In this document: piece by piece, positions 2,216 to 44,593 of the stretch | How positions within the stretch are numbered: position 1 is the stretch's first letter | Layout: every line of letters begins with the position of its first letter | From: Candidatus Omnitrophota bacterium | GTDB taxonomy: Bacteria > Omnitrophota > Gorgyraeia > Gygaellales > Profunditerraquicolaceae | DNA: 45,969 nucleotides | Reading direction: 5' to 3' | Assembly (NCBI GenBank): GCA_030693145.1 | Contig: JAUYBI010000074.1 | Span: 1 to 45,969 of the forward strand | Position numbers and translations under genes: made by a program | Notes under the pieces: generated by a model | The model's input: only the letters and a program-made list of their open reading frames with translations | Databases searched by the model: none | Told to the model about the DNA's origin: nothing

Positions 2216-2332
2216 AATAAACCCTGCGGACTTTTATCAATTACAATAGGGTGGGTTTAAACCTTGACTAACAATAGTAGGGTGGGTTTAAACCCACCCT
2301 ACTATTGTTAGTCAGTAAGGTTTGTTACACCA
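2216..2332. repeat. GTTTAAAC palindromic element, locus R1 (half unit plus a perfect 48-bp palindrome)
   Basis: gactaacaatagtagggtgggtttaaacccaccctactattgttagtc at 2266-2313 is a perfect palindrome; preceded by ataataaaccctgcggacttttatcaattacaatagggtgggtttaaacc. Confidence 0.95.
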
Positions 2333-2411
2333 CTGGAGATTTTATATTTGAAAAAAATATTTTATAGAGATATAATTAAGTAATCAAAAATCATAAAAAA
2401 GGGAGGAATAA

Positions 2412-3404
2412 ATGATTACAGATCTTACCGCCATTAACGAAAAAGTCCAGAAAGAAAGTTTATTCCTGCAAGCGCTTACAGCTGAAATAGGGAAAGTTAT
2501 TGTTGGCCAGAAGTATTTGATTGAGAGATTGCTTGTAGGGTTGCTGGCCAATGGCCATATCCTGGTGGAAGGGGTGCCGGGATTAGCCAAGACTCTCTCT
2601 ATTAAAACGCTGGCTGCCAGTATAAATACTAAATTCCAAAGGATCCAGTTTACCCCGGATCTTTTACCCGCGGATCTCATCGGAACCTTGATCTACAATC
2701 TCAAGGAGGGAATATTTTCTACTAAAAAAGGGCCAATCTTCGCTAATATTATCTTAGCGGATGAAATAAACCGCGCGCCGGCAAAGGTCCAAAGCGCCCT
2801 GTTGGAAGCGATGCAGGAAAGGCAGGTGACCATTGGTGAAAATACTTTTAAACTGGATGATCCTTTTTTAGTCATGGCTACTCAGAATCCCATCGAGCAA
2901 GAGGGCACCTACCCGCTTCCTGAGGCGCAGATTGACCGGTTTATGCTTAAAATTAATATTACTTATCCGAATTTAGAAGAAGAGCATCAGATCCTAAAAC
3001 GGATGAGCTTTACGGATAAGAAAAATGAAGTAAAAGCCGTCCTGGGGCCGGCGGATATTATCCGGGCGCGCAGCGTGGTGGATGAAGTGTATATGGATGA
3101 AAAAATAGAAAAGTATATTTTGGATATTGTATTTGCCACCAGGGATCCTAAAAAATATAAACTCGATGAGCTTTCAAGTTTAATTCAGTACGGCGCCAGC
3201 CCCCGGGCAACCATTAATTTGACTCTGGCTTCCAAGGCCTACGCTTTTATTCAGGGCCGGGGCTATGTGACTCCTCAGGATGTAAAATCAATTGGCCCGG
3301 ATGTTTTAAGGCACAGGATTATTGTGAGTTATGAAGCAGAAGCCGAGGAGAAGACAGCTGATGATATAATCAAAAAGATTTTTAGCGAAGTGAATGTTCC
3401 TTAA
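2412..3404 (+). CDS. MoxR-family AAA+ ATPase
   Basis: GVPGLAKT Walker A, LADEINRAPAKVQSALLEAMQE Walker B; RBS agggagg upstream. Confidence 0.95.
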   Translation: MITDLTAINEKVQKESLFLQALTAEIGKVIVGQKYLIERLLVGLLANGHILVEGVPGLAKTLSIKTLAASINTKFQRIQFTPDLLPADLIGTLIYNLKEGIFSTKKGPIFANIILADEINRAPAKVQSALLEAMQERQVTIGENTFKLDDPFLVMATQNPIEQEGTYPLPEAQIDRFMLKINITYPNLEEEHQILKRMSFTDKKNEVKAVLGPADIIRARSVVDEVYMDEKIEKYILDIVFATRDPKKYKLDELSSLIQYGASPRATINLTLASKAYAFIQGRGYVTPQDVKSIGPDVLRHRIIVSYEAEAEEKTADDIIKKIFSEVNVP

Positions 3405-3419
3405 CCATCTTTTAAGCTG

Positions 3420-4298
3420 ATGCTGCCTAAAGAAATATTACAGGAAATACGGCGGATCCAAATTACTACTTCCCGCATGGTCACGGATGTATTTGCCGGC
3501 CAGTACCAGAGTGTATTTAAAGGCAAGGGTATGGAATTTTATGAGGTGCGGGAGTATTCTCCGGGAGATGAGATCCGTTCTATTGATTGGAATGTTACCG
3601 CGCGCACCGGCCATCTCTTTGTAAAGAAGTTTGTGGAAGAACGCGAGCTGACCGTGATGCTCTTGTTAGATATGTCTGCCTCTTCCTATTTTGGAACAAA
3701 AGGGCAGTTAAAAATGCAGCTGGCGGCAAAGCTCTGCTCTCTTTTGGCGTTTTCCGCGATTAAAAATAATGATAAAGTGGGCTTTATCGCTTTTACGGAC
3801 AGGATAGAAAAGTTTATCCCTCCGAGAAAAGGCATCCGCCATGTCTTGCGCGTTATCCGTGAAGCGCTCTATTTTAAACCTCAAGGCACAGGTACGGATA
3901 TTAGCGTGGCTTTAGAATACCTTAATCGCGTAACCACCCGTAAGGCCGTTACTTTTGTGATCTCAGATTTTTTCTCGCCGGATTTTAAGAAAATGCTGGC
4001 CGTGGCCAATAAACGCCATGATATTGTCGCCGTAACCATTACTGACCCCCGGGAGCTGGAGTTTCCCGATATGGGGTTGGTAAAATTATTTGATCCGGAG
4101 AAAAAGCGAGATTTTATTTTAGATACATCAGACAAAATGCTGCGCCAGGAATACGCGCGGAAAAATCAGCAAAGGATCAGGGAAAGAGAATCGCTTTTTT
4201 GTTCTTTGCGTGTCGATACCATCGATGTGCGTACGGATATACCCTACGCGCAAAGCTTATTGAAATTCTTTAAATCCCGCGAGAGGAGAAGGCGTTAA
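3420..4298 (+). CDS. DUF58 domain protein
   Basis: GxGxEFYEVREYSPGDEIRSIDWNVTARTGHLFVKKFVEERE motif; follows MoxR. Confidence 0.93.
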   Translation: MLPKEILQEIRRIQITTSRMVTDVFAGQYQSVFKGKGMEFYEVREYSPGDEIRSIDWNVTARTGHLFVKKFVEERELTVMLLLDMSASSYFGTKGQLKMQLAAKLCSLLAFSAIKNNDKVGFIAFTDRIEKFIPPRKGIRHVLRVIREALYFKPQGTGTDISVALEYLNRVTTRKAVTFVISDFFSPDFKKMLAVANKRHDIVAVTITDPRELEFPDMGLVKLFDPEKKRDFILDTSDKMLRQEYARKNQQRIRERESLFCSLRVDTIDVRTDIPYAQSLLKFFKSRERRRR

Positions 4299-4807
4299 TG
4301 CATGAAGCACTGCGTGATATTAAAGGCCCGTTAAGTTTAAGCGGCCGCTTGAATATCTTTTTGTTGTTGTTGATTTTAGTTCTTTTAGCTATTGCGGTAT
4401 TTTATTTTAAATTTTTATCCGGAAGAAAGAAAACTCCCGTAATTGTTCTTCAAAAATCAGCCGATGAACTCGCCTATGAACAGTTGGAAAAACTCAAAGC
4501 CAAAGATCTCATCCGGCAAGGTAAGATCAAAGAATATTACAGTGAAGTCTCGGATATTATCCGGCATTATCTGGAAAATAGATTTTTACTAAAAGCTCCG
4601 GAGATGACCACAGAAGAATTCTTATTCTATGTTCGCGATTACAGCCAATTGCTCAGCGGACACAAAACTTTATTAAAGGAATTCCTTCTGGCATGTGACC
4701 TGGTTAAATTCGCAAAATATCTTCCGCCAATTGAAGAGATGAACGCGATTTTCGTATCCGCTAAGAAATTGGTAGATGAGACAAAAGAGGAAATACCTGC
4801 AAAGTGA
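4298..4807 (+). CDS. Membrane protein of the MoxR/Bat operon (DUF4381-like)
   Basis: One TM then an IKEYYSEVSDIIRHYLENRFLLKAPEMTTEEFL pattern; overlaps neighbours. Confidence 0.7.
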   Translation: MHEALRDIKGPLSLSGRLNIFLLLLILVLLAIAVFYFKFLSGRKKTPVIVLQKSADELAYEQLEKLKAKDLIRQGKIKEYYSEVSDIIRHYLENRFLLKAPEMTTEEFLFYVRDYSQLLSGHKTLLKEFLLACDLVKFAKYLPPIEEMNAIFVSAKKLVDETKEEIPAK

Positions 4808-5799
4808 TTTTTCATAGCCCGTTATTTCTATTTTTATTGCCGCTTGCTGTTCTCATAATTATTTATGCCCGCCAGCAAAATCTATCCAGCGGGTTTAAAT
4901 TTTCCTCGGAGGAGCTTATCCGGGATTTAAAGCCAACTTTTAAAGTGCTCTTGAGCCAAAAAATTATTTATCTGCGGTTAATGGCAGCGGCATTGATCAT
5001 TCTGGCTTTAGCCCGTTTGCAATCGCCAATAGCAGATTCCAAGATTACCACTGAAGGCGTGGATATTGTTTTAGCCCTGGATTCATCGACAAGTATGTTG
5101 GCTGAAGATTTTAAAATAAACGGCAAAAGAGAAAGCAGGGTCGAAGTAATCAAGGAGGCAGCAAGAAATTTTATTAAAGGAAGAAAAAATGACCGTATGG
5201 CTATTGTTACTTTTGCTGCCCGGGCTTATACGGTTTGTCCGCTTACTTTAGATTATAATTGGCTGGTTACTAATTTACAGAGGGTAAGATCGGGGATGTT
5301 AGAAGACGGAACGGCGGTTGGTTCAGGGATTGCTGCTTCTTTAAACCGTTTAAAAAATAGTAAGGCTAAAAGTAAGGTAATTATCCTGCTTACTGACGGA
5401 CGCAATAATCTGGGAACAATTTCTCCTTTAACCGCAGCGGAAGCGGCAAAAGCCCTAAAAGTCAAAATCTATACCATCGGCGCAGGGGGCAAGGGCCCGG
5501 TGCCTTATCCGGCGCGAGATTTTTTTGGCAATAAGGCTTATCAGCAAATAGAGGTAGATTTGGATGAGGATACTTTAACTAAAATCGCTGCGATTACCGG
5601 AGCTAAATTTTATCGGGCAACAGATACCGAAAGTTTACGCGAAATTTACGGCGAAATCGACAAGCTGGAGAAGACGCCGATGCAAGAGAAGGGGTATTTG
5701 CAATACCATGAATTATTTCCGTTATTTCTTATTCCGGGGATAGGGTTATTGATTTTAGAAATATTTTTATCGAATACGGTTTTAAGAAAGGTGCCTTAG
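4804..5799 (+). CDS. batA: BatA-like VWA domain membrane protein (GTG start)
   Basis: DIVLALDSSTSMLAEDF MIDAS motif, N- and C-terminal TMs. Confidence 0.88.
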   Translation: MIFHSPLFLFLLPLAVLIIIYARQQNLSSGFKFSSEELIRDLKPTFKVLLSQKIIYLRLMAAALIILALARLQSPIADSKITTEGVDIVLALDSSTSMLAEDFKINGKRESRVEVIKEAARNFIKGRKNDRMAIVTFAARAYTVCPLTLDYNWLVTNLQRVRSGMLEDGTAVGSGIAASLNRLKNSKAKSKVIILLTDGRNNLGTISPLTAAEAAKALKVKIYTIGAGGKGPVPYPARDFFGNKAYQQIEVDLDEDTLTKIAAITGAKFYRATDTESLREIYGEIDKLEKTPMQEKGYLQYHELFPLFLIPGIGLLILEIFLSNTVLRKVP

Positions 5800-6798
5800 A
5801 TGCGGTTTGCGCAACCTTATTTTACGCTGTTTATTTTTGTTATCCTGGGCTTAATCTTGTTTTATCTCTGGGCTTTTAGGATGCGTAAAAGGACTCAAGG
5901 CAAATTTGCGCAAAAAGGTTTGTTGGTTGAGCTGTTGGCGCAAGTTGATCCCGGCAGGCAAAGAATAAAAGCAATTTTAATGATCTTAGGATTAACGTTC
6001 TGTTTTTTTGCTTTACTGCGTCCGCAACGGGGATTTAAATGGCAGGAGGTAAAGCGTAAAGGCCTGGATATAATCATCGCGTTGGATACTTCAAAAAGTA
6101 TGTTGGCCAGTGATATAAAGCCCAGCCGCCTGGAGCGGGCTAAGCTAGCCATCGGCGATTTTACGCAGAATCTTAAAGAGGATAGGGTTGGCTTGATTGC
6201 TTTTGCCGGAAGCGCGTTTTTAAGCTGTCCTTTGACTATTGATTACGGCGGATTTTTGTTGTCCTTGGAAAATGTAGATGTTCATACTATTCCCAGAGGA
6301 GGAACTTCTATTTCCAGCGCGATAAAAGAAGCAATGCGCAGCTATCCTGCCGGAGAGTCGAAATTTAAAGTATTAATTATTATCACGGATGGCGAGGATC
6401 ATGATGGTGATGCGCTTGGGCTTGCCCAGGAAGCTAAAAAAGAAGGTATAATTATTTGTTGTATCGGCATCGGCACTAAGGAAGGAGAATTGGTTTTCCT
6501 GAAGCAGGAGGATGGTAGAAAGGAATTTTTGAAAGATAATGCAGGTAATGCCGTTAAATCCAGTTTGAATGAGGATCTTCTGCAAAAAATCTCCCTGGCC
6601 ACCGGGGGCACGTATATTCGTTCCACCAATACTAATTTTGGCTTGGATCTGCTTTATCAGGGAAGATTATCAAAAATGGAAAAACGTGTATTTGAGGGTA
6701 AAATGAACAAGCTTTATGAGGAAAAGTTTCAGCTCCCGTTACTGTTGGGATTAATCTTAATTTTGTTAGAAATAATAATTAGCGATAGAAAAAAATGA
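5800..6798 (+). CDS. batB: BatB-like VWA domain membrane protein
   Basis: DIIIALDTSKSMLASDIKPSRLERAK, VWA fold plus TMs; adjacent to batA. Confidence 0.88.
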   Translation: MRFAQPYFTLFIFVILGLILFYLWAFRMRKRTQGKFAQKGLLVELLAQVDPGRQRIKAILMILGLTFCFFALLRPQRGFKWQEVKRKGLDIIIALDTSKSMLASDIKPSRLERAKLAIGDFTQNLKEDRVGLIAFAGSAFLSCPLTIDYGGFLLSLENVDVHTIPRGGTSISSAIKEAMRSYPAGESKFKVLIIITDGEDHDGDALGLAQEAKKEGIIICCIGIGTKEGELVFLKQEDGRKEFLKDNAGNAVKSSLNEDLLQKISLATGGTYIRSTNTNFGLDLLYQGRLSKMEKRVFEGKMNKLYEEKFQLPLLLGLILILLEIIISDRKK

Positions 6799-6808
6799 CA
6801 TTATATTA

Positions 6809-6886
6809 AACTCTGCTGACTTTCAATAGGGTGGGTTTAAACCCACCCTACTATTGAAAGTCAGTAAGGTTTGTTACGCTGTCAAA
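6809..6886. repeat. GTTTAAAC palindromic element, locus R2 (inside the bat operon)
   Basis: ctgactttcaatagggtgggtttaaacccaccctactattgaaagtcag; left arm lacks 3 nt relative to the right arm. Confidence 0.93.
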
Positions 6887-6895
6887 AAAATACAG

Positions 6896-7687
6896 ATGAT
6901 GAAAAAAATAATTTTTAGCGGTATAATTATAACCTGTATCTGGCAGGCTCAAGCATCGGCTGCCTCTGTCGCCGGGGCGGTAGAAAAAGGAAACCGGCTC
7001 TATTATGACCAGAAATACCAAGATGCTTCCAAATATTACGATCAGGCGCTTGCTCAACAGCCGGATTCAGCGATTATAAACTTTAACGCCGGCGCAGCCC
7101 AATATAAAACTAAAGAGTACCAAAAAGCAAATAGTTCTTTCGAGCAATCTTTAATCACTGAAGATCGGGGATTGGAAGCCAAGGCAAATTATAATCTGGG
7201 AAATTCCAAATATATGCTAGGATTATCAAAAGAGAACACGGAACTTTCTATAGCCGTGCAGTTATTGGAGGGGGCGCTTAATAATTACACGAGGGCGCAG
7301 GAATTAGCTCTTAAAGATGAAGATGTAAAAGTAAACTATAAGATTGTCCAAGAAAAACTTAAAGAAATTAAAGAAAAATTAAAGCAGCAGCCGCAAGAGA
7401 ACCGGGAACAGAAAACAGAGGACGGAAAACAGGATCAAGAAAAGAAAAAGGCTGACCAACAGCAAGGCCAGGATCAGCAAGGCCAGGATAGGCAGCCTCA
7501 GCAGTCCGGGCAAGAAGGCCAAGAAAAGCCCGGGCAATCTGCTTCAGCTCAGCCGCCAGAGCCAAAAGAAATGTCTAAAGAAGAAGCAAATATGCTGCTG
7601 GAAGGCTACCGGCAGGAAGAAAATACTACCGGCATGCTTAAGGATGACAGAAAAGGCACAGAAGAGAAGGTCTTAAAGGATTGGTAA
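6896..7687 (+). CDS. batC: TPR protein, BatC-like
   Basis: Signal peptide MMKKIIFSGIIITCIWQAQASA, TPR repeats, Q/E/K-rich tail. The track start (TTG at 6854) lies in repeat R2; ATG 6896 or 6899 is preferred. Confidence 0.82.
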   Translation: MMKKIIFSGIIITCIWQAQASAASVAGAVEKGNRLYYDQKYQDASKYYDQALAQQPDSAIINFNAGAAQYKTKEYQKANSSFEQSLITEDRGLEAKANYNLGNSKYMLGLSKENTELSIAVQLLEGALNNYTRAQELALKDEDVKVNYKIVQEKLKEIKEKLKQQPQENREQKTEDGKQDQEKKKADQQQGQDQQGQDRQPQQSGQEGQEKPGQSASAQPPEPKEMSKEEANMLLEGYRQEENTTGMLKDDRKGTEEKVLKDW

Positions 7688-9507
7688 TGAAAATATTTAG
7701 AATAGCGAAAATTTTTATCGCTTTAACTTTTTTACTGTATACGCATGTTTTGGCTAAAGATATTAATTTTGAGGCCACGGTAAATAGCAATAAAGCCGGT
7801 TTAGGGCAGTCGCTGGAGCTGAACTTAACCTTTGACGGCTCACAAAACGTGCCTGTTCCGGAAATATCGGCTATCGAAGGATTTCAGGTGCGTTATTTAG
7901 GCCCCTCTACCAGAATGTCAATTATCAACGGACAGGCATCTAGCTCGGTTACTTATGTTTATACGCTTTTGCCGGCTAAGGTAGGGGTATTTAAGATCGG
8001 GCCTTTTAGATTTGAGCATAATGGTAATACCTATAATTCCAATACGATTAATATTGAAGTTTTAGAAGAAGCAGCGCAGGCGCAAAACCCATCTTCTCAG
8101 GAAGGGCTTTCTCAGGCCAAGGATCTGCAGGAGAGGATATTCTTAAAGCTGCAGTTGGAAAAGGATAAAGTTTATCTTAATGAAGTAATTCCCATTACGA
8201 TTAAATTGTTGGTTAATAAATTAGGGGTTAGGGATATTCAATTTCCGCGATTTAATCATGATGGTTTTTCGGTGGGTGAATTTGGGACGCCCCGACAATA
8301 TCAGGAAGTTATCGGCGGGATAAATTACGAGGTTATTGAATTTAAGAGTACTATTTTTGGATTAAAGCCCGGGGAATTCCGTCTTGGCCCGGCTACTATG
8401 CAGTGTAATCTTATTACTAGAAAACAGGCCAATCGTCAAAGGCCTGCTGCTTTTGACGATTTCTTTAACTCCGATGTTTTTGATAACTTTTTTGGCGGAT
8501 ACCAAGCTTATCCGCTGAATTTAAAATCAGTGGATATCCCGGTAATAGTTTTATCTTTGCCTACGGAAAATAAGCCTGAAGGTTTTTCAGGCGCATTAGG
8601 GGTTTTTGATCTTCAAGCATCGGTAAGCCCAGTGGAAGTAAAAGTTGGGGATCCGCTTACCTTAAAAGCAGTGGTTACCGGCCAGGGTAATTTTAATACC
8701 GTAAACTTACCAGCCGGCAGCCTGGGTGATGATTTTAAAGTTTATGAACCTCAGATTAAGCAGGATAAAGATGCTAAAACATTTGATCAGGTGTTTATTC
8801 CTTTGAATACTTCCGTAAAAGAAATACCGGCAATGAGCTTTAATTTCTTTAATCCGCAAGCCGGAGTTTATGCGACAATTACCAGGGGGCCGTTTCCGAT
8901 CAAGGTAATTAAGCCGGATAAAGCTGAGGAGTTTAAGATAACCGAAAGCAAACAGCCCGCTCCTGCCTTGACTAAAGAGGAGAAATTAGGAAGGGATATA
9001 ATTTATATCAAAGATAATCCCGGCCAATTAAGAAAAAAAGGAGAGTATCTTTATAAGCATAAAATATTTTTGTGGTTACAGGTTATTCCTTTGTTATTTT
9101 ATCTGTTGATGGTAACTTGGCATGCGCGCAAGAGAAAACTTGCCACAGATGTAAAATACGCCAGGCAGCTTTTAGCTCCCCGGAGGGCAAAAGCAGGTAT
9201 CGCCAGGGCAAGAGGGCTTCTGGAGAAAGGCAGTGCCGGAGAATTCTATGATGCTCTGTTTGGGGTACTTCAGGAATACTTGGGCAATAAGTTCCATTTA
9301 CCTTCAAAAGGCATAACCATAAGCATTATCGATGAACAGCTTAAGCATAAAAGCATCCCCGAAGAGATTTTGGTTAATTTAAGGAATATTTTTTCTGAAT
9401 GTGATATCGTCCGCTACGCGGCTTCGCAGTTAACTAAAGAAAATATGCAGAATTCTCTAAAGAGATTAGAAGAGATAATTGACTATTTACAGAGAAATAG
9501 AGTATGA
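7681..9507 (+). CDS. batD: BatD oxygen-tolerance-type protein
   Basis: Signal peptide, beta-rich repeats (FEATVNSNKAGLGQSLELNLTFDGSQ), C-terminal TM; operon context. Confidence 0.85.
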   Translation: MVMKIFRIAKIFIALTFLLYTHVLAKDINFEATVNSNKAGLGQSLELNLTFDGSQNVPVPEISAIEGFQVRYLGPSTRMSIINGQASSSVTYVYTLLPAKVGVFKIGPFRFEHNGNTYNSNTINIEVLEEAAQAQNPSSQEGLSQAKDLQERIFLKLQLEKDKVYLNEVIPITIKLLVNKLGVRDIQFPRFNHDGFSVGEFGTPRQYQEVIGGINYEVIEFKSTIFGLKPGEFRLGPATMQCNLITRKQANRQRPAAFDDFFNSDVFDNFFGGYQAYPLNLKSVDIPVIVLSLPTENKPEGFSGALGVFDLQASVSPVEVKVGDPLTLKAVVTGQGNFNTVNLPAGSLGDDFKVYEPQIKQDKDAKTFDQVFIPLNTSVKEIPAMSFNFFNPQAGVYATITRGPFPIKVIKPDKAEEFKITESKQPAPALTKEEKLGRDIIYIKDNPGQLRKKGEYLYKHKIFLWLQVIPLLFYLLMVTWHARKRKLATDVKYARQLLAPRRAKAGIARARGLLEKGSAGEFYDALFGVLQEYLGNKFHLPSKGITISIIDEQLKHKSIPEEILVNLRNIFSECDIVRYAASQLTKENMQNSLKRLEEIIDYLQRNRV

Positions 9508-10301
9508 ATAAGCCAAGGTTAGTAAAATTCTTCGCAGGTTGCTTAGTTTGTTTAGTTATGGTTTTTAACCTGGGTAGTTCTTTTGCGCAAGAAGTAAAGG
9601 CAGCGCAAGGCAATCGGCTTTTTTATCAGGGTAACGTTGATTATAAAGAAGCTAAATTTGAGGCGGCAATTGATAATTACCTAAAGGTTCTTAATTTAGG
9701 CCTAGAAAGCGGCAACCTCTATTATAATTTAGGGAATAGTTATTTTAAAAAAGGGAAGTTAGGCAGGGCTATGCTCAACTATGAGAGAGCATTAATGCTT
9801 ATCCCTAATGATAGCGATTTAAAATCCAATCACGAGTATGTTTTATCCTTATTGAATCTAGGCCAGCAGTCTTTTGAAAATTGGCTGGGAAAAGCTGCGA
9901 ATAAATTATTCGCAGGTTTATCCGTTAATTTTTTAACCGTTCTTTTAGCGTTTATCTATATCCTGGCGCTTCTGGTTTTGACGAGCAGCTTGATCTTTGC
10001 CCAAGTCAAGAGAAGTATTAATTTTTTATTTTTAATTTTACCGGCAGTATTTATTATCTCGGCCATTTCATTAAACAGTAAAATAGTTTATCTGAGTAAG
10101 GGGGCGGTAGTGGTAAGTAAAGAGGCGCTTGTTAAATTTGAACCACGGGAAGAGGCAACAACCTATTTTAAGCTTAACGAAGGCAGTAAAGTCGCAGTGC
10201 TTGATAAAACTGAAAACTGGTGCAAGATAAAACGTCCTGACGGAAAAATTGGTTGGATGGGTAAGGATAAGCTAGGGTTAATTCTGGATTTAACAGAGTG
10301 A
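9504..10301 (+). CDS. batE: TPR plus SH3-like protein, BatE-like
   Basis: TPR motif NLYYNLGNSYFKKGKLGRAMLNYERALMLIPND and C-terminal SH3b-like KLNEGSKVAVLDKTENWCKIKRPDGKIGWMGKD; ATGA overlap with batD. Confidence 0.8.
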   Translation: MNKPRLVKFFAGCLVCLVMVFNLGSSFAQEVKAAQGNRLFYQGNVDYKEAKFEAAIDNYLKVLNLGLESGNLYYNLGNSYFKKGKLGRAMLNYERALMLIPNDSDLKSNHEYVLSLLNLGQQSFENWLGKAANKLFAGLSVNFLTVLLAFIYILALLVLTSSLIFAQVKRSINFLFLILPAVFIISAISLNSKIVYLSKGAVVVSKEALVKFEPREEATTYFKLNEGSKVAVLDKTENWCKIKRPDGKIGWMGKDKLGLILDLTE

Positions 10302-10319
10302 TGAATATTCAAAAAGCCT

Positions 10320-11066: not shown

Positions 11067-11077
11067 GGGGAGATTTT

Positions 11078-11278
11078 ATGAAGGTGCGCATTAATGGTGA
11101 AGATCTTGATTTTTCATCTTTGGTTTCTATTGCCGAATTTATTATTCAGCGTAAGATACGGCCGGAAACAGTGGTGGTGGAACATAATGGCGTGATCCTT
11201 GACCGGGATAAATGGGAGTCAACCATGCTTAAGGAAAATGATGCGTTGGAAGTTCTATCTTTTTTTGGCGGAGGTTGA
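11078..11278 (+). CDS. thiS: Sulfur carrier protein ThiS
   Basis: Small ubiquitin-like ORF ending FFGGG; upstream of thiG; ATG at 11078 with gggggag RBS. Confidence 0.93.
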
Positions 11279-11280
11279 TT

Positions 11281-12048: not shown

Positions 12049-12049
12049 T

Positions 12050-13923: not shown

Positions 13924-13990
13924 CACCAGTAGGGTGGGTTTAAACCCACCCTACTGGTGAAGGCCTGGTGAAGGCCTGGTGAAGGCCCGT
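13924..13990. repeat. GTTTAAAC palindromic element, locus R3, plus 11-bp tandem
   Basis: caccagtagggtgggtttaaacccaccctactggtg, perfect 36-bp palindrome (13924-13959), followed by three tggtgaaggcc units. Confidence 0.95.
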
Positions 13991-16918: not shown

Positions 16919-17065
16919 TTATAATAAATCCTGCCGGCTTTTATCAATTACAGTAGGGTGGGTTTAAACCCACCCTACTATTGTTAATAAGCTGTGTAGG
17001 GAGGTTCCTGCCGGCTTTTATTAATTACAGTAGGGGAGGTTTAAACCTCCCCTACTGTTGAAAGT
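16919..17065. repeat. GTTTAAAC palindromic elements, locus R4 (one GGGTGGG class, one GGGGAGG class)
   Basis: cagtagggtgggtttaaacccaccctacta (16951-16980) and cagtaggggaggtttaaacctcccctactg (17028-17057). Confidence 0.95.
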
Positions 17066-29097: not shown

Positions 29098-29208
29098 TTA
29101 TAATAAACCCTGTGGACTTTTATCAATTACAGTAGGGTGGGTTTAAACCCACCCTACTATTGTTAATAAGCCGTAGGGGAGGTTTAAACCTCCCCTACTA
29201 TTGAAAGT
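29098..29208. repeat. GTTTAAAC palindromic elements, locus R5 (both arm classes)
   Basis: cagtagggtgggtttaaacccaccctacta (29130-29159) and gtaggggaggtttaaacctcccctac (29173-29198). Confidence 0.95.
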
Positions 29209-31559: not shown

Positions 31560-31613
31560 AAAATAAAAGGGACCGTTTCTATTTTTAAAATAAAAGGGAC
31601 CGTTTCTATTTTT
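31560..31613. repeat. Two tandem 27-bp units aaaataaaagggaccgtttctattttt
   Basis: Two identical consecutive copies (31560-31586, 31587-31613) directly after the GNAT stop codon. Confidence 0.95.
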
Positions 31614-31615
31614 TA

Positions 31616-31665
31616 TTAACAATAGTAGGGTGGGTTTAAACCCACCCTACTGTAATTGATCAGAG
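31616..31665. repeat. GTTTAAAC palindromic element, locus R6
   Basis: agtagggtgggtttaaacccaccctact at 31624-31651. Confidence 0.95.
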
Positions 31666-32809: not shown

Positions 32810-32951
32810 GGACTTTTATCAATTACAGTAGGGTGGGTTTAAACCCTGATTAACAATAGTAGGGTGGGTTTAAACCTTGATTAACAATAGTAGGGTGGGT
32901 TTAAACCCACCCTACTATTGAAAGCCAACAAGGTTTGTTACACTGTCCTGA
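32810..32951. repeat. GTTTAAAC palindromic element, locus R7 (two half units plus a perfect 36-bp palindrome)
   Basis: Half units ...acagtagggtgggtttaaaccctgattaacaatagtagggtgggtttaaaccttgatt, then caatagtagggtgggtttaaacccaccctactattg (32885-32920). Confidence 0.95.
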
Positions 32952-34558: not shown

Positions 34559-34577
34559 TAAATATAAAGACCCCCTC

Positions 34578-34790
34578 TACTACAATAGTAGGGTGGGTTT
34601 AAACCCACCCTACTATTGTAGTATGGTTTAAACCCACCCTACTATTGTAGTATGGTTTAAACCCACCCTACTATTGTAGGGGTTTAAATCCACGTTACTA
34701 TTGTAGGGGTTTAAATCCACGTTACTATTGTAGGGGTTTAAATCCACGTTACTATTGTAGGGGTTTAAACCCACCCTACTGAAAGTCAGC
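34578..34790. repeat. GTTTAAAC palindromic element, locus R8, with a tandem array of half units
   Basis: 46-bp perfect palindrome 34578-34623, then 29- and 27-bp half units including three ggggtttaaatccacgttactattgta units at 34679-34759. Confidence 0.95.
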
Positions 34791-36072: not shown

Positions 36073-36073
36073 T

Positions 36074-36745: not shown

Positions 36746-36753
36746 TATCAATT

Positions 36754-36785
36754 ACCGTAGGGGAGGTTTAAACCTCCCCTACGGT
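36754..36785. repeat. GTTTAAAC palindromic element, locus R9 (GGGGAGG class)
   Basis: accgtaggggaggtttaaacctcccctacggt, perfect 32-bp palindrome. Confidence 0.95.
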
Positions 36786-36797
36786 TGAAGGTGAATA

Positions 36798-37127
36798 ATG
36801 AAACTCATTAATAAACTTTGGTTAGGGTTAGGTATTTTAATTATTCTTTCTCCGTTGGGCCTAATATTGCCCGAGCATTTTAAGGCGGGTTCAGCCTGGG
36901 GAGAATGGGGAGTAGGCGAGATTCAGAAGCTAGCCGGTTATATTCCCAAAGGCCTGGATAAATTTTCCCATCTTTGGAGCGCGCCGCTTCCCGATTACGC
37001 ATTTAGGGGAGGGGAAGGAGAATCTGTTCTAGTTTTAAGCCTTTCTTATATTCTGTCCGCGGTTATCGGGGTATTTATTTGTATTGGTGTTGTATTCATA
37101 TTGGGTAAATTTTTAAGCAAAAAATAA
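36798..37127 (+). CDS. PDGLE-domain (CbiN-like) ECF transporter accessory protein
   Basis: SPLGLIL...GSAWGEWGVGEIQKLAGYIPKGLDKFSHLWSAPLPDYAF, C-terminal TM. Confidence 0.85.
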   Translation: MKLINKLWLGLGILIILSPLGLILPEHFKAGSAWGEWGVGEIQKLAGYIPKGLDKFSHLWSAPLPDYAFRGGEGESVLVLSLSYILSAVIGVFICIGVVFILGKFLSKK

Positions 37128-37136
37128 TAATAGTGA

Positions 37137-37350
37137 CTTTTATTAATTATCAATTACAGTAGGGTGGGTTTAAACCCTTTTATTAATTAACAATAGTAGG
37201 GTGGGTTTAAACCCACCCTACTATTGTTAATAAGCTATGTAGGGGAGGTAAACCCACCCTACTATTGTTAATAAGCTATGTAGGGGAGGTAAACCCACCC
37301 TACTATTGTTAATAAGCTATGTAGGGGAGGTTTAAACCTCCCCTGCTGTT
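37137..37350. repeat. GTTTAAAC palindromic element, locus R10, with a 41-bp tandem array
   Basis: taagctatgtaggggaggtaaacccaccctactattgttaa recurs at 37231, 37272 and 37313 (41-bp period); palindromes of both classes at the ends. Confidence 0.95.
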
Positions 37351-37391
37351 GAAAATCTTGTCAATTTTTTTAAGTAAAAATTTAAATTTGT

Positions 37392-37399
37392 GCTATAAT
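37392..37399 (+). promoter_or_regulatory. Extended -10 promoter candidate upstream of gcvT
   Basis: tgcTATAAT about 40 nt before gcvT; no good -35 seen. Confidence 0.4.
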
Positions 37400-37437
37400 T
37401 CTTAAAATTATCTAAATCATTTAATAAAGAATATACC

Positions 37438-38511
37438 ATGTTAAAAACCCCGCTTTATGAAACTCATCTTGCGCTTGGCGCAAAAATGGCTCCTTTTGGC
37501 GGATGGATGATGCCCATTCAATATCAAGGGATATTGGCGGAGCATGCGCATACCCGGAGGAGTGTTTCCGTGTTTGATATTTGCCATATGGGTGAATTTA
37601 TGCTCCAAGCCGATCCGGCCTTAAGCGGTTTTGACCGCCTGGTTACTCAGAATATAACCGCGATGCTTCCGGGTACCTGTCGTTATGGTTTTATGCTTAA
37701 TGAGCAGGCAGGAATACTGGATGATCTTATTGTTTATCGGATAAATAAGGCCAGTTGGATGATCGTAGTTAATGCTGTCACAACTCCCGGCGACTTGGCG
37801 CATTTAAAAGAAAATCTTTTTGCGGGATACTCTTTGGAAGACGTGTCTAGTAAGATGGCCAAGCTTGATGTGCAGGGGCCGCAGTCTCAGGAGGTATTAA
37901 AAAATATTTTCGGCCAGAAATTAGAAGAGCTTAACTATTATACTTTTTCGGAATTTAAAATTTTTGATCATCAAAGTTGCATCGTTAGCCGGACCGGCTA
38001 TACCGGGGAATTGGGTTATGAGATTTACATTGCCGATGATTATGTCGGCAGGCTTTGGGAGCTTTTGCTTAAAGATACACGAGTAAAACCGGCAGGCTTA
38101 GGCTGCCGGGATACCTTACGTTTAGAAATGAGTTATCCTCTTTATGGCCAGGATTTGGATACGCTGCATACGCCATTAGCCGCGGGCCTGATGAAATTCG
38201 TTGATTTATCCAAGGATTTTATCGGCCGGGAGGCTTTGGCCAGAGAGCAAGAGAATTGTCCCAAGGAGCATTTGATTTATTTCCAGGCAGATTCCCGGCG
38301 GGCACCGCGCCATGGTTTTGCGATATTGGATAAAGGCCGGAAAATTGGTACGGTAACCAGCGGTTCTTTTTCTCCCAGCCTGGGTGTGGGTATCGGGATG
38401 GGGTATGTGGCGGGTAATTATGATATTGGTGCGCAGCTTGTAGTTAAGCAAGAGGCTGCGGAAATTCCGGTTGCAGTTGTTAAGAGGGTTTTCTTGAATA
38501 AAAAGTTATGA
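37438..38511 (+). CDS. gcvT: Glycine cleavage system aminomethyltransferase T
   Basis: MLKTPLYETHLALGAKMAPFGGWMMPIQY, SRTGYTGELGYEIY, GLGCRDTLRLE. Confidence 0.96.
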   Translation: MLKTPLYETHLALGAKMAPFGGWMMPIQYQGILAEHAHTRRSVSVFDICHMGEFMLQADPALSGFDRLVTQNITAMLPGTCRYGFMLNEQAGILDDLIVYRINKASWMIVVNAVTTPGDLAHLKENLFAGYSLEDVSSKMAKLDVQGPQSQEVLKNIFGQKLEELNYYTFSEFKIFDHQSCIVSRTGYTGELGYEIYIADDYVGRLWELLLKDTRVKPAGLGCRDTLRLEMSYPLYGQDLDTLHTPLAAGLMKFVDLSKDFIGREALAREQENCPKEHLIYFQADSRRAPRHGFAILDKGRKIGTVTSGSFSPSLGVGIGMGYVAGNYDIGAQLVVKQEAAEIPVAVVKRVFLNKKL

Positions 38512-38527
38512 AATAAAGGGAGTCTTA

Positions 38528-38917
38528 ATGAATATACCAAAGAATCTTTTTTACACCAAGGATCATGAGTGGGCGAGGATTGAAGGCAAGGTTGCTTATA
38601 TCGGGATCACGGATTACGCCGCGCATTCTTTAGGAGATATTACTTTTGTCCAGCTGCCTAAAATAGGTGAACTGCTCAAGCAGTCAGCTTATTGCGCGAC
38701 AGTAGAATCGGTTAAAGCCGCCTCGGATGTATATGTTCCTTTATCGGGGAAGGTTTTGTCGGTAAATACACAGTTGGCCACTAATCCGGAGTTGATTAAT
38801 CAGTCTGCGTATGAGCAAGGTTATTTTTTCTCAATGGAATTTTCTGATGCAGCAGAAAAAGCCAAGCTGATGGACTCGGCTAGTTACCAGCAGTATGTAG
38901 AAGGGCTTTCTAAATGA
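38528..38917 (+). CDS. gcvH: Glycine cleavage system H protein
   Basis: YTKDHEWARIEGKVAYIGITDYAA, ATVESVKAASD lipoylation site. Confidence 0.97.
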   Translation: MNIPKNLFYTKDHEWARIEGKVAYIGITDYAAHSLGDITFVQLPKIGELLKQSAYCATVESVKAASDVYVPLSGKVLSVNTQLATNPELINQSAYEQGYFFSMEFSDAAEKAKLMDSASYQQYVEGLSK

Positions 38918-40245
38918 GTTATATTCCGCACACAGCAGAGGACATTCAACAGATGCTCTCTGTAATTGGAGTCAAGAGTATTGATGAACTTTTTAAAGAT
39001 ATACCCCTGGGTTTAAGGCCAAAATCTTTTAACCTGCCCGCGTCAAAATCAGAGTTCCAGGTAACGCAAACTTTACATAAACTCGCGGCCAAGAATGCCA
39101 CCGGCCTGGTTAATTTCGTGGGAGCCGGTTTCTATGACCATTTTATTCCTGCCGCCGTGGATGCGCTGGTTAGCCGTTCGGAATTTTATACCGCTTATAC
39201 GCCGTATCAGCCGGAGTGCGCGCAAGGCTGGTTGCAGGCAATCTATGAATATCAAAGTATTATCTGTGAGTTGACCGGGTTGGATGTTTCCAATGCTTCT
39301 TTATATGATGGCGGTACTGCTCTCTTTGAAGCGATGATGATGGCCTTGCGGCATACGGGACGGAATAAAATTATTCTGGATAGCGGAGTCAATTTGATTT
39401 ACCGCACCATGCTCTATACTTATACTTTAAATCTGGCAATCGAATTCGTGGAGATTCCGGTTGTGCATGGGCAGAGCTGCCGGGAAGAATTATTTAAGTA
39501 TTTGGATGATCAGACGGCCGCGGTAATCTTTCAGAACCCTAATTTTTTTGGCGCGGTTGATGACTACAGCGATATGGTTGAGCAGGTGCATAAGTTTGGC
39601 GCCCTGGCGATTGAGGTAGCGTATCCGGTATCTTTAGGTATGTTAAAAACCCCGCAAGAGATGGGATTTGACATTGCGATAGGGGAGGGGCAGAGTTTAG
39701 GGATCCCGCTTTCTTTTGGCGGGCCGTATCTGGGATTTATGGCGGCAAGAAGCCAGTTAGTGCGCCAGATGCCCGGCAGGATTGTGGGCTCGACGGTGGA
39801 TAGCGATGGCAGGAGAGGTTTCGTTTTGACCTTACAGACACGCGAACAGCATATCCGCCGGGAAAAAGCAACCTCTAATATCTGTTCAAACGAAGCGCTC
39901 TGCGCTTTACGCGCCGTTGTGTTTATTTCTCTTTTAGGCAGAGAGGGTTTTAAAGAATTAGCCGAGCATAACTATCAGAAGGCGGAGTTTGCCAAAGAAA
40001 CATTATCCAGGATCAATGGTGTGCAGGTAAAACGTTCTTCCCCTACTTTTAATGAATTTACGGTTCTTCTGCCGCGCCACGCGGATGAAGTAGTGCGTCG
40101 GATGATTGATAAAGGTTTTGCTTGCGGTTTCCCGTTGGGCAGGTTTTATCAAGGCCTGGATAACTATTTATTAATCGCGGTTACGGAAAAAAGAACCAAG
40201 GAAGAGATTTGCCGGCTCGCGGATAGCCTGGAGGCAGTTTTATGA
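38914..40245 (+). CDS. gcvPA: Glycine dehydrogenase (decarboxylating) subunit 1
   Basis: YIPHTAEDIQQML, FVGAGFYDHFIPAAVDAL, YTPYQPECAQGWLQAIYEYQ. Confidence 0.96.
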   Translation: MSYIPHTAEDIQQMLSVIGVKSIDELFKDIPLGLRPKSFNLPASKSEFQVTQTLHKLAAKNATGLVNFVGAGFYDHFIPAAVDALVSRSEFYTAYTPYQPECAQGWLQAIYEYQSIICELTGLDVSNASLYDGGTALFEAMMMALRHTGRNKIILDSGVNLIYRTMLYTYTLNLAIEFVEIPVVHGQSCREELFKYLDDQTAAVIFQNPNFFGAVDDYSDMVEQVHKFGALAIEVAYPVSLGMLKTPQEMGFDIAIGEGQSLGIPLSFGGPYLGFMAARSQLVRQMPGRIVGSTVDSDGRRGFVLTLQTREQHIRREKATSNICSNEALCALRAVVFISLLGREGFKELAEHNYQKAEFAKETLSRINGVQVKRSSPTFNEFTVLLPRHADEVVRRMIDKGFACGFPLGRFYQGLDNYLLIAVTEKRTKEEICRLADSLEAVL

Positions 40246-40301
40246 ACCCATTCGACAAGCTCAGGGTTCATCCCGAGCGACTGGAAGGAGTCGAGGGATG
40301 A
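40246..40301. repeat. Palindromic repeat inserted between gcvPA and gcvPB
   Basis: acccattcgacaagctcagggttcatcccgagcgactggaaggagtcgagggatga, with tcatccc...gggatga arms. Confidence 0.65.
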
Positions 40302-41746
40302 GATTAATATTTGAAAAACATAAAGAGGGCCGCCGCGGATTTTCTTATGGCGCAAGTGATGTTGCCGGGGCTAAACCTTTAGCGGGAAAATTTTGCCGCG
40401 CAACTGAGGCGCGCCTGCCTTGTTTAAGTGAATTAGATGTGGTGCGCCACTTTACAAATCTTTCGCGCCTTAATTTTTCCGTGGATACAAATTTTTATCC
40501 GTTGGGTTCATGTACGATGAAGTATAATCCCAAATTTACTGAACGCATTGCTGCTTTTGAGGGGTTTTCGCAGCTGCACCCTTTATTACCGCAACTTTCC
40601 GGCGGAGGGATGCTGGCGCAAGGGGCATTGGAAGTTTTATATGAGTCGGAAAAATTGTTCGCCGAAATTACCGGGATGAGCGCCTTTACTCTGCAGCCTT
40701 TGGCCGGAGCGCACGGGGAGTTGACCGGAGTAATGTTGATTGCCGCCTATCATCAGCATCAAGGTTTGCGGCGTAAATATATTATTGTTGCGGATTCATC
40801 GCATGGTACCAACCCGGCAAGCGCGGCGATTGCCGGCTATGAGGTTAAAGTTATTCCTACCGGCGCGGATGGTTATCTGGATTTAGTCCAGTACAAAAAA
40901 CATTTGAATAATGAAGTGGCGGCAGTGATGTTGACTTGTCCGGATACCCTGGGGATTTTTAATCCGCGGATCAAGGAGATTGCGGATATGGCCCATAGCG
41001 TGGGGGCGCTCTTGTATTATGACGGAGCTAATCTTAACGCGATGCTGGGTAAATGCCGGCCCGGAGATATCGGTTTTGACTTGGTGCATATAAATTTACA
41101 TAAGACTTTTGCTACTCCGCATGGGGGAGGAGGCCCGGGAGCAGGCCCGGTGGGGGTCAGCCAAAGATTAGTTGAGTTTTTACCCATTTCCCGGGTCATC
41201 CGGCGCCTTGATGCAACCTTTGCGTTGGATTATAATTATCCTAAATCTATCGGTTACATCGCGCCTTTTTACGGAAACTTTGGAGTAATCCTTAAAGCTT
41301 ACGCGTATATCCTGGCTCTGGGTAAAGAGGGCCTGATTAAGGCGGCGGAAATTGCGGTGCTCAATGCCAATTATTGTCAGGCCAGGCTTAAAGAGTATTA
41401 TGATTTGCCTTTTGACAAAAGATGTATGCACGAATGCGTTTTTTCCGCGTCCCGCCAGGCAAAAAACGGGGTACACGCGTTGGATATCGCTAAATATTTG
41501 ATTGATCAGGGGTATCATCCGCCGACAATATATTTTCCGCTGATTGTCCAGGAAGCGTTGATGATTGAACCGACAGAAACAGAATCAAAAGAGGCCCTGG
41601 ATGCTTTTATTGACACGATGATTCAGATCGCTGAGTTGGCAAAAAATAATCCTTCCGCGGTTACTCAGTCGCCTCTGAATATGCCGATAAAACGCCTGGA
41701 TGAGGTCAGGGCAGCGCGCCAGCCGGATCTCCGCTGGAAACCGTAA
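40298..41746 (+). CDS. gcvPB: Glycine dehydrogenase (decarboxylating) subunit 2
   Basis: FYPLGSCTMKYNPKFTE, SSHGTNPASAAIAGYEV, INLHKTFATPHGGGGPGAGPVGV. Confidence 0.96.
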   Translation: MRLIFEKHKEGRRGFSYGASDVAGAKPLAGKFCRATEARLPCLSELDVVRHFTNLSRLNFSVDTNFYPLGSCTMKYNPKFTERIAAFEGFSQLHPLLPQLSGGGMLAQGALEVLYESEKLFAEITGMSAFTLQPLAGAHGELTGVMLIAAYHQHQGLRRKYIIVADSSHGTNPASAAIAGYEVKVIPTGADGYLDLVQYKKHLNNEVAAVMLTCPDTLGIFNPRIKEIADMAHSVGALLYYDGANLNAMLGKCRPGDIGFDLVHINLHKTFATPHGGGGPGAGPVGVSQRLVEFLPISRVIRRLDATFALDYNYPKSIGYIAPFYGNFGVILKAYAYILALGKEGLIKAAEIAVLNANYCQARLKEYYDLPFDKRCMHECVFSASRQAKNGVHALDIAKYLIDQGYHPPTIYFPLIVQEALMIEPTETESKEALDAFIDTMIQIAELAKNNPSAVTQSPLNMPIKRLDEVRAARQPDLRWKP

Positions 41747-41761
41747 ACGAAAAAAAATCAA

Positions 41762-42472
41762 ATGAAATCATTCCGGCTTATCCGCTCAGGCGCTTCTTGT
41801 GCCGCTGGCAATATGGCGCTGGATGCAGAAATCTTTAAGGGTTATCTGGAAGATGGTGTCGGTGTATTACGCCTGTACCGTTGGCAGGCGCCTGCTTTTA
41901 CCTATGGATTTTCGCAAGAGCCCAAAAATCAGCTTGATCTGACTGCTTGCGCAGCTGATGGAGTGGGGGTGGTAAAAAGAATTACCGGCGGAGGAACTCT
42001 TTTTCATGATGACGAAATAACTTATAGCTTTGTTTGCAGTAAAACTGATGTGGGAGAGCCGGAAGGAGTGTTTGTTGATTACCGCAATCTCTGCGCTTTT
42101 CTGATGCGTTTTTATGAATCTTTGGGCCTGGCTCCGGCTTTTGCTTTGGAGGCAGCGGGTTTTAAAGATCGCTGCGCGTCGCATGCACTTTGCAGCGCGG
42201 CATATGAAAAATACGATATTGTGATTAACGGCAGGAAAATCGGAGGGAATGCGCAGAAAAGGAATAGGCAGGTTATCTTTCAACATGGTTCTATTCCTTG
42301 TAGAATAAATTGGGATTTTGCGCGCAAGTATATTTATTCTTTACCCAAGGATATTTCTACATACGTAACCACCCTTAGCGATGAGTTAAAAGTAGTTTCT
42401 GAAAAAGATATTTTAGAGCAAAAACTCATAGATGCCTTCGCCCATACATTTAAGGTCAATCTAGACATGTAG
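41762..42472 (+). CDS. Lipoate-protein ligase/octanoyltransferase (LplA/LipM family)
   Basis: GNMALDAEI, VVKRITGGGTLFHDDEITYS, KIGGNAQKRNRQVIFQHGSI; followed by lipA. Confidence 0.88.
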   Translation: MKSFRLIRSGASCAAGNMALDAEIFKGYLEDGVGVLRLYRWQAPAFTYGFSQEPKNQLDLTACAADGVGVVKRITGGGTLFHDDEITYSFVCSKTDVGEPEGVFVDYRNLCAFLMRFYESLGLAPAFALEAAGFKDRCASHALCSAAYEKYDIVINGRKIGGNAQKRNRQVIFQHGSIPCRINWDFARKYIYSLPKDISTYVTTLSDELKVVSEKDILEQKLIDAFAHTFKVNLDM

Positions 42473-42607
42473 ACAGTGTACGTAACCGTATAGATTACAA
42501 TTGGTTGCCAAAGAAATATTACTGTTTTTCTACTTGTCTTTGGGTAAATACTAAAAATATTTCTTACATAACTAACTGATGAATATAGTGTTACGTACAC
42601 TGTCTAC
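42469..42607. repeat. Hairpin-forming MITE-like element, family 2, copy B
   Basis: TIR gtagacagtgtacgtaac ... gttacgtacactgtctac, a perfect 18-bp inverted repeat; inner arms ggttgccaaagaaatatt / aatatttcttacataact. Confidence 0.85.
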
Positions 42608-42614
42608 AAAGACC

Positions 42615-43463
42615 ATGAAACCAGCGTGGTTGAATAAGAAGATTAGTCTTAAAGATTGCGCGGTGATGAAACAGGCTCTGCGTAATCTAGGCGTAGAAAC
42701 TGTTTGCGAGCAGGCGATGTGCCCGAATATCGGGGAATGTTTTTCGCGTAAGACAGCGACATTTTTAATTTTGGGCCGTATTTGTACTCGCGGCTGCAGC
42801 TTTTGTAATATTCAGAAGGCAAGGCCTTTACCGGTAGATTTAAATGAACCATCCAGAGTCGCGCAGGCAGCAGCGCAGCTGGGTTTAAAACATGTTGTGA
42901 TTACCAGCGTTACCCGGGATGACCTTACCGACGGAGGGGCAGAAATTTTTGCCCGGACAGTCATGTTGATTAGAAAAAAATTACCGCAAGTTAAAATAGA
43001 AACTTTGATTCCGGATTTCGGGTTTTCTGTAGATGCTTTAAAAATTGTGGTTAAGGCCAAACCTGATATTATTGCGCACAACCTGGAAACGGTTCCGTCG
43101 CTTTATAAAGTCGTGCGTCAAGGCGCGGATTATGCAGGTTCAGTTGGCCTGTTGCGTGCGCTAAAAGAAATTGCTCCGCAGCTGAAGACAAAATCCGGCC
43201 TGATGCTGGGGTTAGGGGAAAAAGTAGATGAGGTCTTAGCAGTAATGCAGGATTTACGTTCCGTGAAATGCGATTTATTGAGTATCGGCCAGTACCTGGC
43301 GCCAAGCAAACAGCATTATCCGGTCAAAGATTATATTTCTTTAGAGCAATTTGACTGTTATAAAGAAAAAGGAAGAGATTTGGGATTCTTGCATATTGAA
43401 AGCGCGCCTTATGTGCGTAGTTCATATTTAGCCGCTGAATATTTATCTTTAAAAGATAACTGA
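42615..43463 (+). CDS. lipA: Lipoyl synthase
   Basis: CEQAMCPNIGECF, TFLILGRICTRGCSFCNI; ATG 42615 preferred over track start 42579, which lies in the repeat. Confidence 0.95.
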   Translation: MKPAWLNKKISLKDCAVMKQALRNLGVETVCEQAMCPNIGECFSRKTATFLILGRICTRGCSFCNIQKARPLPVDLNEPSRVAQAAAQLGLKHVVITSVTRDDLTDGGAEIFARTVMLIRKKLPQVKIETLIPDFGFSVDALKIVVKAKPDIIAHNLETVPSLYKVVRQGADYAGSVGLLRALKEIAPQLKTKSGLMLGLGEKVDEVLAVMQDLRSVKCDLLSIGQYLAPSKQHYPVKDYISLEQFDCYKEKGRDLGFLHIESAPYVRSSYLAAEYLSLKDN

Positions 43464-43465
43464 CT

Positions 43466-43800
43466 CTTTACAGCAGGGGAGGTTTAAACCTCCCCTACAG
43501 TTTATTAATTACAGTAGGGTGGGTTTAAACCTCCCCTACAGTTTATTAACAATAGTAGGGTGGGTTTAAACATCTCCTACAGTTTATTAACAATAGTAGG
43601 GTGGGTTTAAACATCCCCTGCAGTTTATTAATTACAGTCTGCCGGCTATACAGCTTTTTAACAATAGTAGGGTGGGTTTAAACCCACCCTACTATTGTTA
43701 AAATTAATAAAAGGGTTTAAATCCACCCTACTGTAATTAATAAAAGGGTTTAAATCCACCCTACTGTAATTAATAAAAGTCAGCAGGCTTTATTATAAGA
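43466..43800. repeat. GTTTAAAC palindromic element cluster, locus R11 (hybrid and degenerate units)
   Basis: Units such as agtagggtgggtttaaacctcccctacag (mixed arms), a full palindrome near 43660-43702, ending aaaagtcagcaggctttattata. Confidence 0.95.
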
Positions 43801-43821
43801 TTTAAAAAAGGAGAATTAGTA

Positions 43822-44541
43822 ATGTCTAAAGTTATGATGAAGGTTAAATTATTAGAGATGAGCCAGAATGCAATCACCCTTATTTATGCCGCTTGCCGGC
43901 AATGTTATTCTGAAAAATTTGCCGGTGATGTTTTTTTAGATGAAGCGATAACGCTCCAAAAACAGGAAGCTTTTGTAAAGAGCATTGTGGCTTCCGGCCA
44001 TCAAAGTCCATTGGAGCACGTTAAGTTTACTTTTGCTATTGAAGGAGTTTCCCGTGCTCTTACGCATCAATTGGTGCGTCACCGTCTGGCTTCTTATTCC
44101 ATGCAAAGTCAGCGGTATGTCAAAGAAAAAGATTTTGATTATATTCTTCCGCCGGAGATTGAGCGTAATCCGGAAGCAAAAAAAGAATTTGAAAAGTTAA
44201 TGGCAGTAATTCAGCAAAGTTACACTAAATTACTTACGCTTTTGGGGCAGGATAATCTTAGCGGTGAGTCGGCAAATCAGGATGCGCGTTTTGTGCTTCC
44301 GCAGGCGGCGGAGACTAAAATTGTGGTTACTATGAATTGCCGGGAGTTATTACATTTCTTTGAGCATCGCTGTTGTTTAAGGGCACAGTGGGAGATTCGC
44401 CAGCTGGCGAATAAGATGCTGGCGATTTGCGTCGAAAAATTGCCGGCAGTTTTTGCGGATGCGGGAGCTAAATGTGATGCGTTGGGGTATTGTCCGGAAG
44501 GGGAAAAATTCTGCTGCGGTAAATATCCCTTCAAAAAGTAA
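43822..44541 (+). CDS. thyX: FAD-dependent thymidylate synthase ThyX
   Basis: SPLEHVKFTFAIEGVSRALTHQLVRHRLASYSMQSQRYV motif. Confidence 0.97.
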   Translation: MSKVMMKVKLLEMSQNAITLIYAACRQCYSEKFAGDVFLDEAITLQKQEAFVKSIVASGHQSPLEHVKFTFAIEGVSRALTHQLVRHRLASYSMQSQRYVKEKDFDYILPPEIERNPEAKKEFEKLMAVIQQSYTKLLTLLGQDNLSGESANQDARFVLPQAAETKIVVTMNCRELLHFFEHRCCLRAQWEIRQLANKMLAICVEKLPAVFADAGAKCDALGYCPEGEKFCCGKYPFKK

Positions 44542-44553
44542 TAAATCTTGTTG

Positions 44554-44593
44554 ATTTCCAGTAGGGGAGGTTTAAACCTCCCCTACTGGAAAT
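44554..44593. repeat. GTTTAAAC palindromic element, locus R12 (GGGGAGG class)
   Basis: atttccagtaggggaggtttaaacctcccctactggaaat, perfect 40-bp palindrome. Confidence 0.95.

Follow-up and report, generated by a model that had tools for sequence, protein, structure and literature searches.

Palindromes with GTAG and CTAC feet in an Omnitrophota genome are probably double-foot REP elements dispersed by a REP-associated tyrosine transposase

Introduction

A stretch of 45,969 nucleotides from a Candidatus Omnitrophota bacterium (contig JAUYBI010000074.1, assembly GCA_030693145.1; the whole stretch is called the window here) carries closely similar palindromes in one gap between genes after another. 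The question raised by this locus is what kind of element these palindromes are and what has spread them. A first-pass annotation made from the sequence had proposed a non-autonomous, REP-like palindromic family, possibly domesticated as a bidirectional 3′-end processing or cruciform element. Correia or NEMIS elements are defined by Correia terminal repeats and a TA target duplication. For TnpA_REP subclass 2.4, repeats have been described as double-foot REPs, whose opposite ends carry GT[AG]G and C[TC]AC, and spacer deletion was suggested as the origin of such repeats (Corneloup et al. 2018, PMC6006769).

Material and methods

The assembly that holds the window (G000) comprises 1.806 Mb in 75 contigs and is 94% complete. 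Y1 transposases (PF01797) were searched for in 58 genomes of relatives of the window. A profile, A1, was built from the proteins encoded at L114, L121 and L057, the latter two being 74–77% identical to the first. G000 was compared with its close relative G006, to which it is 92–94% identical over two main syntenic contigs.

Results

Palindromes in the window

The window contains 24 copies of the GGTTTAAACC core, where shuffled sequence predicts 0.06, and 26 copies of GTTTAAAC, with 1.2 expected. Matches to a 28-mer consensus with at most three mismatches numbered 19 (0 expected). The copies cluster into 12 loci, about one per 3.8 kb (table 1), in agreement with the 12 intergenic loci and the spacing of about 4 kb that had been read from the sequence. 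The perfect, loopless form described for many copies was also recovered, full sites having perfect arms of 11–25 nt and hence palindromes of 22–50 bp, and at least five loci are tandem arrays, the repeated unit measuring 27 to 41 nt. All called genes lie on the + strand and every palindrome lies between genes, so that no coding sequence is interrupted in the window, as had been stated. Rfam RNA families gave no match in the window.

Table 1. Palindrome loci of the window and their state in G006.
Locus	Position	Arrangement	G006
1	2245..2310	half copy and full palindrome (arm 25 nt), 31-nt tandem	extra 31-nt unit absent
2	6797..6883	palindrome 6825-6852 within outer arms of about 27 bp, GACA...TGTC	present
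2, flanks	6797..6883	possible 8-bp direct repeat AAAAAAAT	
3	13928..13955	one palindrome, perfect over 36 bp including flanks	absent
4	16952..17056	palindrome pair, TGGG and GAGG stems	absent
5	29131..29199	palindrome pair, 41 nt apart	absent
6	31624..31651	one palindrome adjoining GGGACCGTTTCTATTTTT repeats	palindrome absent
7	32827..32916	three-copy array, unit 31 nt	absent
8	34587..34781	array of 29- and 27-nt units, part degenerate	single copy
9	36756..36783	one palindrome, GAGG stem	entire locus 9-10 stretch absent
10	37158..37347	full and half copies arrayed in units of 37 and 41 nt	
11	43472..43775	full, hybrid and degenerate copies arrayed with a unit of 41 nt	core found
11, right outer arm	about 43771-43798		
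12	44560..44587	one palindrome (arm 20 nt), GAGG stem	

Abundance and distribution

Confinement to this contig, which the first-pass annotation had named as a finding against a family and for which it had called for a genome-wide search, proved false. The window's genome holds 126 exact copies of the strict 28-mer, 166 of GTAGGGNN..NNCCCTAC and 203 of GTAG-N5-GTTTAAAC-N5-CTAC, the reversed control pattern giving 0. The palindrome is present in 55 of 384 Omnitrophota genomes, at 1–203 copies each; the carriers belong to many families both inside and outside the window's class, and most members of its own genus are without it. Among the matches listed from 84,980 species genomes, at least 80 loci were named, all from Candidatus Omnitrophota. 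The patchy distribution is more readily understood for a mobile element than for a conserved function. A link to viruses was considered and dropped, the GTAGGG..CCCTAC pattern having no match in viral contigs.

Anatomy of the palindrome

The family can be written as (TTATCCACA-N2-3-)GTAG-N5-GTTTAAAC-N5'-CTAC(-N2-3-TGTGGATAA). GTAG stands at the foot of the hairpin, as in REPs, in 203 copies of the window's genome; the GTAG and CTAC feet at the two ends are complementary to each other, in place of the unpaired tag at one end only by which REPs are recognized. Between the feet and the TTAA centre, most free stem positions show at least two base-pair types, with GGGAG, GGTGG, GGCAG, CTGAC, GTGAC, CGGAG, GTCAG, GCCAG and CCGGG among the stems seen. 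Despite this variety, perfect palindromes make up 211 of the 230 unique sites, in a set whose part from other genomes is skewed to GGG..CCC stems, a requirement of the first scan; 24 perfect stems lie outside the window's genome. Folded as single-stranded DNA, three units gave −12.4 to −23.7 kcal/mol.

Of 292 arms from genomes other than the window's, 46 (at L114, L121, L036, L045 and other loci) carry exact TTATCCACA, in each case 2 or 3 nt away from the foot; this sequence agrees with the DnaA-box consensus that PMC6006769 gives. The consensus at the corresponding position in the window's genome is TTATTAACAACA, which may be a decayed form of TTATCCACA. Some copies in that genome are enclosed by outer arms of about 27 bp (GACATTATAATAAAC.../...GTTTGTTACACTGTC). 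As a separate observation, GGGGACGGTTCTATTTTT-type inverted repeats resembling TIRYT ends were seen at L031, L042, L065, L070, L076 and L086 and in the window at about 31560–31615, and a GTAG palindrome often sits between their two halves.

Gene context

Context was scored with simple gene calls in 413 kb of the window's genome, a density-biased sample picked around known copies, in which 74 of 76 classifiable sites were intergenic and two lay in genes. The intergenic sites comprised 70 codirectional, 4 divergent and 0 convergent ones. At least five T stood in the next 8 nt at 12 of the 70 codirectional sites, which agrees with the earlier remark that most copies lack a T tract, and TTTT followed a single site; the hairpin and T tract of an intrinsic terminator are not the general arrangement. 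Codirectional sites were nearer to the upstream stop than to the next start in 48 of 70 cases, no more than the geometry of the gaps gives (p = 0.17). With few T tracts and no stop-proximal excess, termination or 3′-processing was rejected as a general function, and the avoidance of genes is read as selection against harmful insertions.

A transposase between palindromes in relatives

PF01797 Y1 transposases were present in 49 of the 58 relatives' genomes, and two of the genes fetched, from G032 and G013, directly adjoin palindromes. The order at L114 is palindrome-CTTGTGGATAACT-ATG...TAA-GTTATCCACAGA-palindrome, and the same plan recurs at L121 and L057. The bracketed gene encodes an HUH/Y1 protein of about 163 aa that scored 119.2 and 126.8 bits against NCBIfam NF047646 (REP-associated tyrosine transposase, RAYT), above the cut-off of 80, and 27.6 and 36.4 bits against NF033573 (IS200/IS605 transposase), below the cut-off of 55; among solved structures, E. 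coli TnpA_REP (4er8) is its best relative. The motifs in alignment A1 are EHLH or DHLH, IWQ and Y[IV]HNNP. As read from the alignment, only W94 and Q95 of the E. coli guide-binding residues are kept, E100 being replaced by D and H101 by E, and R104 not being kept. A Y1/REP transposase with matching ends, which had been put forward as a thing to look for, does occur in relatives.

The A1 profile matched in 18 of 384 genomes at E ≤ 1e-30. Strong intact matches have a GTAG..CTAC palindrome no more than about 160 bp away, on one side or on both, and the broken copies L183 and L184 are flanked as well; no flanking palindromes were found at the weaker matches L182, L185 and L186 or at the other Y1 genes examined. 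In a tree, 15 flanked genes fall on one side of one branch and 40 other, unflanked Y1 genes on the other, L176 being scored as flanked by eye since its palindrome has a mismatch; none of 500 shuffles was as low for this grouping, and the branch has moderate support (73/54). Intact genes of the clade, aligned over about 160 aa, contain no repeat insertions within tnpA. G021 and G013 belong to one genus, yet G021 groups with other families (100/99), and this conflict between tree and host taxonomy suggests that the clade RAYT was transferred horizontally between hosts.

A syntenic Y1 gene of 243 aa (L110, L112, L113, L116), outside the flanked clade, was first taken as the partner because palindromes lie about 1–1.5 kb away, and was rejected because it also occurs in the palindrome-free genus members L120, L124 and L125. 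Y1 genes of about this length are found across the genus (the loci just named and L115), and the sizes of their neighbours agree in several cases, suggesting that this transposase has been domesticated.

RAYT and repeats occur together. The N5 palindrome was found in 15 of 18 RAYT-bearing genomes and in 40 of 366 others (p = 2e-11, a value that overstates independence because the genomes are related), and with a wider TTAA-centred pattern 17 of the 18 were positive. Dispersed copies share the stem of the copies flanking the gene: GGCCAG in G082, GGTCAG in G369, CGGAG in G032 and CGCACC in G312.

Repeats in flux in the window's genome

The window's genome yielded no cognate RAYT, its best Y1 gene scoring 71.5 bits against 190–348 bits for intact clade members, and none was found at E ≤ 1e-30 in G006 (70 copies) or G020 (35 copies). 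The palindromes of this branch thus appear to be orphaned, although repeats are known to break assemblies; the family, with roughly 200 copies in the window's genome, was apparently active in the past, its transposase having since been lost or being absent from the assembly. A c-di-GMP-I riboswitch (56.9 bits; L108:726-804, − strand) was also noted upstream of a Y1 transposase gene on contig C28 of this genome.

By alignment reading, 20 sites of G000 have matching flanks in G006, and the palindrome is shared at 11 and absent from G006 at 9; an absence could be a deletion in G006 or an insertion in G000. Two of the shared loci, 2255 and 34588, hold more tandem units in G000 than in G006. One orthologous site differs between the two genomes on both arms together, and another has unpaired changes in G000. 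A small gene (36798-37127) lies between two palindrome loci, and a stretch of about 640 bp there (36756-37347) is missing from G006, being either deleted in G006 or gained in G000.

An in-frame copy of about ten codons lies in rfbB (RRGGLNLPYG in G006 and G020; L206:13073-13107, L112:8937-8968, L116:733-764). It is common to G000, G006 and G020 and missing in G004; the insertion is clear, and the ends of the element are not fixable to the base. Neither rfbB nor the G000–G006 comparison gave a clean empty site from which the limits of the mobile unit could be read to the base, and close matches to the outer arms always included a core, which an empty site would have lacked. A target duplication was not established: a matching repeat was found at one of seven two-armed copies, where the 8-bp repeat is probably due to chance.

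Discussion

The palindromes are, with high probability, a double-foot REP family dispersed by a RAYT. They would be the non-autonomous product of this HUH/Y1 enzyme of about 163 aa. By analogy with the biochemistry of TnpA_REP, either strand of the palindrome, when single, would fold into a hairpin that has GTAG at the foot, and the RAYT would bind foot and hairpin, cut and rejoin them and seed copies elsewhere. Copies would survive mainly between genes, and arrays may grow and shrink at half-sites by recombination or slippage. The evidence for a double-foot REP family is that the RAYT lies between palindromes at L114, L121 and L057 and in most of the 18-genome set, and that the flanked genes group together and co-occur with dispersed copies of matching stems. 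Further support comes from the NCBIfam score of the protein and its relation to TnpA_REP 4er8, from the pairing kept across varied stems, from the patchy distribution and from the differences in site occupancy and array length between G000 and G006. Counting against it are the lack of a cognate RAYT in the window's genome, G006 and G020, the partial loss of the guide-binding residues, the perfect stems, the moderate clade support, and the lack of a clean empty site or an established target duplication. The part of the first-pass annotation that proposed a non-autonomous REP-like family stands, given the Y1/REP partner in relatives; its domesticated, bidirectional 3′-end processing or cruciform element does not.

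A variant in which dispersal is coupled to replication is unlikely: the DnaA boxes (TTATCCACA) 2–3 nt outside the feet would tie dispersal to DnaA binding or to the single-stranded DNA of replication, the RAYT would read the foot and a perfect hairpin, not the stem sequence, and one lineage would have kept and multiplied about 200 copies after loss of the transposase. We regard as improbable that the palindromes are punctuation in RNA or DNA kept by selection, such as bidirectional terminators, stabilizers of mRNA 3′ ends, cruciforms or protein-binding sites. Nearly all sites are intergenic, the hairpins are strong, most codirectional sites are closer to the upstream stop than to the next start, and pairing is perfect though stems vary, one orthologous site having changed on both arms; but T tracts are few, the position within gaps does not differ from random, another orthologous copy decays without compensation, and the palindromes are missing from most of the genus and, at about half of the compared sites, from a close relative. 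The lack of convergent sites among those classified, with some divergent ones, speaks against punctuation too and, with the T tracts and stop distances, against the 3′-end processing first proposed. Effects on neighbouring mRNAs at the RNA level are possible but secondary.

We give very little credence to a larger MITE as the moving unit in the window's genome, with terminal repeats of about 27 bp (GACA...TGTC), an unknown DDE-type transposase and the GTAG palindrome as its centre. The outer arms GACATTATAATAAACYCTGCTGACTTT / AAAGTCAACAAGGTTTGTTACACTGTC do recur in both orientations, close matches to them always enclose palindromes, and the copy at locus 2 has a possible 8-bp target duplication; at the thresholds used, however, both arms occur at only 7 of 89 loci in that genome and neither at 64, the other six two-armed copies lack a matching duplication, and outside the genus the palindromes lack outer arms and adjoin RAYT genes.

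Taken as a double-foot REP family, the palindromes resemble the repeats of TnpA_REP subclass 2.4 (PMC6006769) in having GTAG and CTAC at opposite ends, a long hairpin, copies flanking tnpA, WQ and YIxNNP motifs in the protein and repeats that can sit in-frame within genes. They differ in that the HuH motif is [ED]HLH here and NH[IFV]H in the subclass, that subclass 2.4 has repeat insertions within tnpA and the intact RAYT genes here do not, that TTATCCACA stands beside many palindromes, and that the host phylum, Omnitrophota, is unmentioned in PMC6006769. Given the differences in HuH motif and in insertions within the gene, the RAYT was not filed in subclass 2.4. With the GTAG REPs and REPtrons (Di Nocera et al. 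2013, PMC3733652; Nunvar et al. 2010, PMC2817692) the family shares a GTAG tag, an extragenic, abundant and clustered distribution, adjoining RAYT genes and complementary stem changes; classical members have a loop and one unpaired tag, whereas the present palindromes carry a tag at each end and the two pair with one another. REPINs (Bertels and Rainey 2011, PMC3116915) are likewise symmetric hairpin units with outward GTAG on both strands, a single RAYT per genome and tandem clusters, but consist of two REPs and a spacer, whereas a single loopless palindrome is seen here, as if the spacer were deleted. TIRYT elements have GGGGWSAS inverted repeats (PMC3733652), and the GGGGACGGTTCTATTTTT-like repeats in the same genomes are a separate family, between the halves of which several GTAG palindromes lie. 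Strengthening the stem of an E. coli REP was reported to abolish cleavage (PMC3733652), whereas the palindromes here are perfect.

The first-pass annotation had counted a prior description against its proposal. Such a description exists for the kind, GTAG or double-foot REPs, and the literature search found no published description of this palindrome family, or of REPs, in Omnitrophota. As far as that search shows, RAYT/REP biology is thereby extended to an uncultivated phylum. The transposases and their matching palindromes form a natural series in which stems vary and complementarity is kept, so that it becomes testable whether RAYTs read the stem sequence or only the GTAG foot and the shape of the hairpin, as does the persistence of REP families after their RAYT has been lost.
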